Notes under the pieces: model-generated | Databases searched by the model: none | Told to the model about the DNA's origin: nothing | Seen by the model: the letters and a program-made list of their open reading frames with translations, nothing else | DNA from: a virus | DNA length: 32,362 nucleotides | Direction: 5' to 3' (one strand) | IMG/VR virus record: IMGVR_UViG_3300042539_000408 | Span: 1-32,362 of that record | Part shown: positions 25,377-26,400 of the stretch, piece after piece | Layout: each line of letters begins with the position of its first letter | Numbering within the stretch: position 1 is the stretch's first letter | Program-made: the position numbers and the translations under genes

Positions 25377-25405
25377 GCAGACCATTCTATTGGATGTTGG
25401 ACAGG

Positions 25406-25963
25406 TCAGGAAGACGGTGATACCGACGTGGTATTGGTGGATCGCCAGTCCGTTCTGTCCCAGTTCCCCTTGCCGTGGTTGCAGGGGTGGCAAAGGATCT
25501 GCAGGTTGTCTATGTCCAGGGCGAGATGAGGGTAGTGCTTTCGGGGTTTTATGTGGTCGACGTTGATGGTGATACCGTCGGCCGGCGTCGCGCCGCAGCA
25601 CATACACCTAGCACCGTACTTCTTGATGGCCAGCATCCGCAGCTGCCGCCACTCAAAAGTGTCGAGGAAAGCGTCTGTCTTGGGGTCAGTCTTGCTCTGC
25701 GGCTTAGTTGTGACGCTGTGCACCCACTCGTCAGACTTGTCGCGCACGATCCTCGCGTGGAAGGCATGCACGACATGCAGGTTGCGAATCACCCAGCCTC
25801 GACAGGACGCACCAGGCGGCCTCGGAAACCCGTCCTTGGCCAGGGCCCTGCAGGTCAGTTCATAGATGCTGGCATGCCGCTCGAATAAATGTCCGAGTCG
25901 GCTCTTGGTGTAAGCGTGCAGCTTGCTCTTCTTGATGGGCACCTTGTAGCGCACCTGGGGCAT
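25406..25963 (-). CDS. HNH endonuclease
   Basis: A 185-residue protein. The C-terminal HNH domain has zinc pairs CMCC (C120, C123) and CHPC (C158, C161), the catalytic NVDHIKPRK (H137), DIDNLQILC (N153) and CNHGKGNWD (H163). The N-terminal half is a helical domain (YKVPIKKSKLHAYTKSRLGHLFERHASIY). HNH nucleases next to terminase genes can support DNA cleavage in packaging (HK97 gp74 type), or they can be free-standing homing enzymes. The long non-coding stretch just upstream favours an insertion or a dedicated RNA element. AAGGAG lies upstream of the ATG. Confidence 0.88.
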   Translation of the reverse strand: MPQVRYKVPIKKSKLHAYTKSRLGHLFERHASIYELTCRALAKDGFPRPPGASCRGWVIRNLHVVHAFHARIVRDKSDEWVHSVTTKPQSKTDPKTDAFLDTFEWRQLRMLAIKKYGARCMCCGATPADGITINVDHIKPRKHYPHLALDIDNLQILCHPCNHGKGNWDRTDWRSTNTTSVSPSS

Positions 25964-26400
25964 ATTCAGGACTCCTTGAGGAGGTTCCAGGCAAAGGCCC
26001 CCTACCCCACAGACGTGAAGTAAGAGGCAGGCTCCAGGGCCCCGTAGGGCATCCCCACATGCCAGCTTGCGCTGCGCCCTCGACTTAGGGGATACGGCCA
26101 GTCGGCGGACTCTTACGGATTTGCACCGGGCAGGTCTTATGCGACCTCCTTACCGCTACCCTTTTCTTCCGCGCAGCCGGGTTGGGCTCTTGCTCCGTGC
26201 GGAGTACGGGTTACGGCAAAACAAAAACCCTCATGGGGAAAGGCTTTAGGCTTGGTTTGCCGCTACTTGGTTGGTCACGCCACCTTCCAAGTGCTTTGAC
26301 GAAGCCCGCCCCCATGAGGGTTCGGATAATCGCAGGCGTGTGCTGTATCGGTTTACCAGGCCGACACGCTGCGTACAGTAGCCAAACGCTCCGCAGGCTG
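25964..26400 (-). ncRNA. 437-base non-coding stretch with many hairpins (candidate structured RNA)
   Basis: This is the longest gene-free stretch in a genome whose other genes mostly overlap. Read on the minus strand it contains hairpins with arms at 26392-26396/26369-26373, 26364-26368/26337-26341, the 13-bp stem 26310-26322/26226-26238, an inner stem 26287-26292/26265-26270, 26200-26204/26193-26197, 26143-26147/26132-26136 and 26108-26111/26100-26103. The hairpin AGGTC-GCATAA-GACCT is followed by GGTGCAAATCC, which recalls the anticodon arm and T-loop of a tRNA, but no D stem forms and the acceptor stem is incomplete. I cannot assign it to a known RNA class. A group I intron remnant or an HNH-linked RNA are possibilities only. 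Confidence 0.45.
26218..26322 (-). terminator. Branched terminator-like stem after the large terminase gene
   Basis: On the minus strand AACCCTCATGGGG pairs perfectly with CCCCATGAGGGTT, enclosing 71 bases that themselves fold (ACTTGG/CCAAGT with an inner GGT/ACC). The closing arm is followed by TTTGTTTT (26225-26218). A 13-bp stem plus U-tract looks like a rho-independent terminator with an unusually large structured loop, or the 3' end of a small RNA. Confidence 0.55.

Follow-up and report, generated by a model that had tools for sequence, protein, structure and literature searches.

The locus examined here raises the question of what occupies the stretch between the terminase gene terL and an HNH endonuclease gene in a viral DNA of 32,362 nucleotides (IMG/VR record IMGVR_UViG_3300042539_000408), referred to below as the window. 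Both genes run on the minus strand, terL up to 26401 and the HNH gene from its ATG at 25963, and positions 25964-26400 between them hold no convincing gene, just short ORFs in alternative frames. The gene-free gap reported by the first-pass annotation is therefore real, and its remark that the upstream terminase is complete was borne out as well, as terL is whole in the window and no gene is interrupted at the gap. The folding energy of the gap is modestly unusual (z = -2.28, with none of 100 shuffled sequences folding as low), and since it is only modestly low, the case for structured RNA rests on comparative evidence. On that evidence the gap is far beyond chance, because homologues covary strongly in both halves, and the prediction that the minus strand of 25964-26400 encodes two structured RNA modules, A followed by B, is well supported.

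Module A is preceded by a putative sigma70-type promoter (26404-26375, minus strand) that is kept in relatives. Its -35 element, TTGACA (26404-26399), overlaps the terL stop codon TGA (26403-26401) and is followed after an 18-nt spacer by the -10 element TACTGT (26380-26375), which occurs as TAGTGT in loci L003-L005 and in the sibling loci L083, L084, and L086; elements resembling TTGACA and TATAAT precede most of the 65 copies of type-1 module A. The module itself (26368-26218, minus strand) is a predicted structured RNA of about 150 nt with an embedded intrinsic terminator, its start near 26368 being placed from the position of the -10 element. Hairpin 1 (26367-26345) has the stem GTGTCGG/CCGATAC and a UGGU loop (26358-26355) complementary to ACCA (26256-26253) in the terminator loop. 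Hairpin 2 (26343-26332), with the stem GCA/TGC, carries in its loop the sequence CACGCC (26340-26335), the 5' half of a kissing pair whose partner, GGCGTG (26281-26276), lies on an inner hairpin (26292-26265) of the terminator loop. The terminator hairpin (26322-26226) corresponds to the 13-bp stem with a folded 71-nt loop that had been noted from the sequence, and the description was exact: AACCCTCATGGGG (26322-26310) pairs with CCCCATGAGGGTT (26238-26226). The run said to follow this stem is also present, as the T tract TTTTTGTTTT (26227-26218), and at least four T residues follow the terminator stem in 65 of 65 type-1 copies. A G+C-containing stem followed by a T run is the anatomy of an intrinsic terminator, and module A is accordingly predicted to end in one. 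A simple consensus scan of the window called neither the promoter nor the terminator, on account of the weak -10 element and the length of the terminator loop.

The comparative evidence for module A comes from a large family. A terminator-loop 17-mer was found in 109 viral stretches, 102 of the 108 loci examined fit the family profile, and more than 100 IMG/VR viral contigs carry type-1 module A; the window's own copy matches the profile at 1.6e-27 (nhmmer). When bacterial genomes were scanned with the 17-mer, at least 119 stretches were recovered, and among the matches listed, none fits the profile. A test for compensatory changes in homologous phages, which the first-pass annotation had proposed, revealed covariation in both A and B. 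For the kissing pair of module A, 55 distinct copies contain 42 different hairpin 2 loops, each of which was scored against its own partner in the terminator loop. At least six contiguous Watson-Crick pairs join the two loops in 91% of these copies, and the mean of 6.09 contiguous pairs, compared with 4.33 for swapped partners, was reached in none of 20,000 permutations. The stems are maintained to a similar degree, with 98.8% pairing for hairpin 1 across the 55 copies (70.5% when permuted), 99.3% for the basal stem of the terminator (80.4%), and 97.5% for its inner stem (57.6%), while the stem of hairpin 2 is paired within the family range (98-99% versus 58-80% permuted). The second loop-loop contact, UGGU/ACCA, becomes UGGC/GCCA in part of the family. 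Over the whole alignment, the covariation score is 0.382, compared with 0.140 for shuffled and at most 0.086 for slid alignments, and the terminator loop holds an invariant core, GGGCTTCGTCAAAGC, common to the 54 aligned sequences.

Module B in the window is of the alpha type (26209-25985, minus strand). In an alignment of 16 sequences, 17 of its 36 pairs have changed on both sides, 95.9% of cells are paired, and the covariation score is 0.353 (0.178 shuffled, at most 0.104 slid). The structured block begins 12 nt past the terminator in the window, and in the 18 alpha-type copies measured, B begins 17-24 nt past the T tract, which leaves no space for a promoter of its own. Most copies of A have a B-like RNA behind them on the same strand. 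At least six other types of B stand behind module A elsewhere, one B family occurs behind differing A sequences, and in L196 and L250 an ORF is found in place of B. Some alpha-type copies (L199, L222, L279, L263, L185, L181, L230, and L425) hold a tRNA-like insert composed of a T arm, a D stem, a long acceptor stem, and a very short anticodon arm; ARAGORN called no tRNA in the first seven of these inserts. A string within module B that resembles part of a cobalamin riboswitch, GGTGCAAATCCG, was without support from Rfam and was set aside.

The covariance search that had been proposed for the gap was run on the window against Rfam 15, and at gathering thresholds it returned no match for module A or for the window's B; with permissive settings, the best match was a sub-threshold one to Chlorobi-1 (13.5 bits, E = 2). 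The literature within reach, which excluded most subscription journals, yielded no description of either module. A new phage noncoding RNA, the first of several suggestions made for this gap, is thus supported by conservation, by covariation, by the lack of any Rfam match at gathering thresholds, and by a predicted promoter and terminator.

The surroundings of the cassette, compared among 160 viral loci gathered by using the HNH and TerL proteins as queries, bear on what such an RNA might do. The whole arrangement is kept in L002-L005. In L082-L086, TerL is 98-99% identical, yet a different cassette stands at the same site: these siblings match the window for the first 35-60 nt past terL and then diverge. 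Beyond that point they have a different promoter-terminator RNA and, where the window has B and HNH, a different block; the window sequence resumes where the HNH gene ends. Among the other close terL relatives sampled, the majority have nothing more than a short promoter-like stretch separating terL from the gene that follows. Together, the differing cassettes of the siblings and the short stretches of these relatives indicate that the terL-cupin junction exchanges whole cassettes, and such comparisons lead us to read the gap as one of an uncatalogued set of exchangeable RNA cassettes found in more than 100 uncultured phages. Elsewhere, cassettes adjoin genes for primase, helicase, ParB, methyltransferase, terminase, and other proteins. 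Two further features of these neighborhoods were seen. A TATCGC-type palindrome past terL is seen in many terL relatives (25377-25400 region of the window, minus strand, and L097-L161), together with a promoter whose -10 element, TAGAAT, is separated by just 7-10 nt from the next gene's ATG; transcripts of that gene, which in the window is the cupin gene, may therefore be nearly leaderless. In L221, the ORF upstream of module A encodes a 746-aa terminase-like protein with an apparent intein (CIPGTMIATPSGDRPIEM ... EHEFIANGIVVHN).

Because copies lie beside unrelated genes, two candidate functions are improbable. The first, also raised by the first-pass annotation, is a packaging RNA like the phi29 pRNA, in which complementary loops pair between molecules. 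The window's cassette adjoins terL, and pRNA is typically marked by kissing loops whose changes compensate one another, but the cassette has neither the constant link to a packaging ATPase that would be expected of a phi29-type pRNA nor any tie to terminase elsewhere, and it is missing from most close terL relatives sampled, which have a short promoter region only, making this function extremely improbable. The second is a site that controls late genes as lambda pR'-tR' does, with a constitutive promoter and a nearby terminator that a phage antiterminator overcomes. Such a site has the same order of promoter, leader of about 150-200 nt, and terminator, and the layout suggests that structural-type genes lie downstream in the window. 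In many phages, however, copies precede unrelated genes (primase, ParB/helicase, methyltransferase, or HNH), and most close terL relatives do without the cassette and have the short promoter before the next gene instead; a general late-gene switch is therefore unlikely.

The HNH gene (25963-25406, minus strand), which is preceded by the Shine-Dalgarno sequence AAGGAG (25977-25972), is an optional last part of the cassette. Its 185-aa product matches PF01844 (E = 1.7e-8) and phrog_144 (E = 7.7e-19), confirming the endonuclease that had been recognized downstream of the gap, and at E 1e-3 against Pfam it matches HNH alone, with no RuvC-type domain. Mobility is common among HNH classes, IscB is accompanied by HEARO/OMEGA RNAs, and an HNH gene stands behind about 18 of the 65 copies, all of which would suit either what is left of a mobile intron or an RNA that serves the HNH protein specifically, whether guide-like or involved in homing. 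Most copies, however, have no HNH gene nearby, no gene is split, the elements sit in many intergenic places, and no Rfam match to a group I or group II intron or to HEARO was found in the window or related loci. We consider an origin or function of this kind very unlikely; a dedicated HNH guide RNA was rejected given the minority of copies concerned and the protein's lone HNH match. Of the proposed tie to HNH, what stands is a loose association.

The layout is not confined to one sequence. Type-2 module A (GTTGGCGTNNNAACCGAC) is present in about 45 copies, with a variable triplet that is matched within the terminator loop, and 12 further loci, found mostly via the downstream B block and not via A, have a promoter, a hairpin, and a terminator whose sequences are unrelated and in which hairpin and terminator loop are complementary in the same way. 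This complementarity averages 7.33, compared with 4.92 for permuted partners (0 of 20,000 permutations); for one of the 12, L512, the expected pair was missed by the script, and a short AGCGT/ACGCT pair was read by eye. The 12 include MW202426 and MW202753, which are circular, complete-genome phage records. Searches by blastn with the window region and its relatives against phages gave weak or short matches alone, which led to the cassettes in these two records, and blastn of one relative against plasmids gave no substantial match. In the deposits of MW202426 and MW202753 (L512 and L513), short hypothetical proteins are annotated over the RNA modules and are probably spurious genes. As judged from these loci, the predicted layout is more general than the sequence of module A, and what the comparison delineates is a sigma70-like promoter, a module A with its putative terminator, two predicted loop-loop contacts, a module B, and an optional gene.

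What this layout accomplishes can be approached from its anatomy. Since no promoter fits between the T tract and B, transcription from the promoter of A would reach B and HNH by read-through alone. With roughly even confidence, we propose that the cassette consists of a module A ending in a terminator that gates transcription of B and HNH. Most transcription would yield a discrete A RNA of about 150 nt with its end near 26218, the end point anticipated by the first-pass annotation and one that agrees with the anatomy, whereas read-through of the terminator would yield A-B, plus HNH in some phages. The level of read-through would be set by the hairpin loops folding into the terminator loop or by a factor binding the conserved core, so that the gate would work like a terminator-embedded attenuator; the covarying kissing contact and the conserved core in the terminator loop are natural candidates for this role. 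The antitermination site considered by the first-pass annotation survives here in changed form only, as a terminator that stands between the promoter and B/HNH and has to be read through. In favor of a gate, loss of the kissing pair coincides with degradation of B in L258 (1061-1208 and downstream), where B is reduced to a 3' remnant and an HNH gene adjoins, a possible case of joint decay of A and B. Counted against it are the lack of a clear antiterminator helix (a mutually exclusive one was looked for and not found), the only slight excess over permutation (about 3% of permutations do as well) in pairing between the 5' hairpin and the sequence immediately past the terminator, the existence of B relatives without A, and the replacement of B by an ORF in the two loci named above. 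Transcripts from upstream genes could supply B too, though they would cross the same terminator.

The main rival to the gate is a stand-alone small RNA, either trans-acting or a scaffold, in which the terminator merely ends module A, the kissing loops hold its fold, and B is produced separately via leak-through and processing. A conserved fold bracketed by promoter and terminator argues for such an RNA, as does the core GGGCUUCGUCAAAGC, which is identical across phages with differing B. However, B nearly always comes immediately after A, in the same orientation and with no promoter space, and a free small RNA needs none of that; we regard this explanation as possible but doubtful. Returning to the gate, a broader proposal, plausible though short of probable, is that of a modular phage RNA system in which a gate is mounted before interchangeable structured RNA payloads, including the Betaproteobacteria-1 RNA, with conditional termination controlling the payloads and the diversified, matched loops keeping co-resident cassettes from interfering with one another. 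Structured phage RNAs without an assigned function are already a known kind, and a gate-plus-payload layout with diversified kissing loops appears to be previously undescribed. What began as an unexplained gap now stands for a phage RNA class that can be recognized and counted: more than 100 contigs of uncultured viruses carry it, and related cassettes are present in phage records that are circular and hold complete genomes. Payload and gate would be genetically separable, which would make the role of large structured phage RNAs directly testable.

Several known systems share parts of this arrangement. HEARO/OMEGA RNAs with IscB-type HNH nucleases likewise place a structured RNA beside an HNH gene, but the HNH gene of the cassette is optional and encodes the HNH domain alone. 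Lambda pR'-tR' (lambda 6S RNA) and the HK022 put RNA consist of a promoter, a short leader RNA, and a terminator to cross; module A has the same components and differs in having no tie to late genes and a conserved structure within the terminator loop. The Betaproteobacteria-1 RNA (RF02932), which has no covariance-model match in the window, is present in phage genomes at L194 (10563-10680), L534 (1492-1609), and L533 (2462-2585). It fills the module-B slot in L194 and L534, and in L194 and the complete phage genome MW202545 (100.8 and 100.1 bits) it lies directly behind a kissing terminator. Like the window's B, it is a structured phage RNA behind A, and Rfam lists it as an sRNA gene only; this orphan RNA thereby gains a genomic slot in common with other RNA families. 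It is nonetheless a different family from the window's B and also exists without module A, none being recognizable upstream of it in Acidovorax phage AP1 or at the three bacterial sites for which the sequence upstream was examined. GOLLD and ROOL, which gave no match at gathering threshold in the window or related loci, resemble the cassette as large structured phage RNAs with kissing loops, and the linkers of GOLLD, which sometimes contain tRNAs (PMC12286853), recall the tRNA-like insert of some alpha-type B copies. The cassette differs from both in being smaller, in being split by an internal terminator, and in having no general association with tRNA islands (2 of 97 elements, with few tRNAs parsed). 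A further parallel in layout is the HMP-PP riboswitch (thiS motif), which has a conserved RNA domain within a terminator hairpin (PMC6478431), much as module A has an invariant core inside the terminator loop. Compared with the riboswitch, module A has no link to a ligand or metabolic gene, is phage-borne, joins its terminator to an upstream hairpin through a kissing loop, and is usually followed by another RNA.
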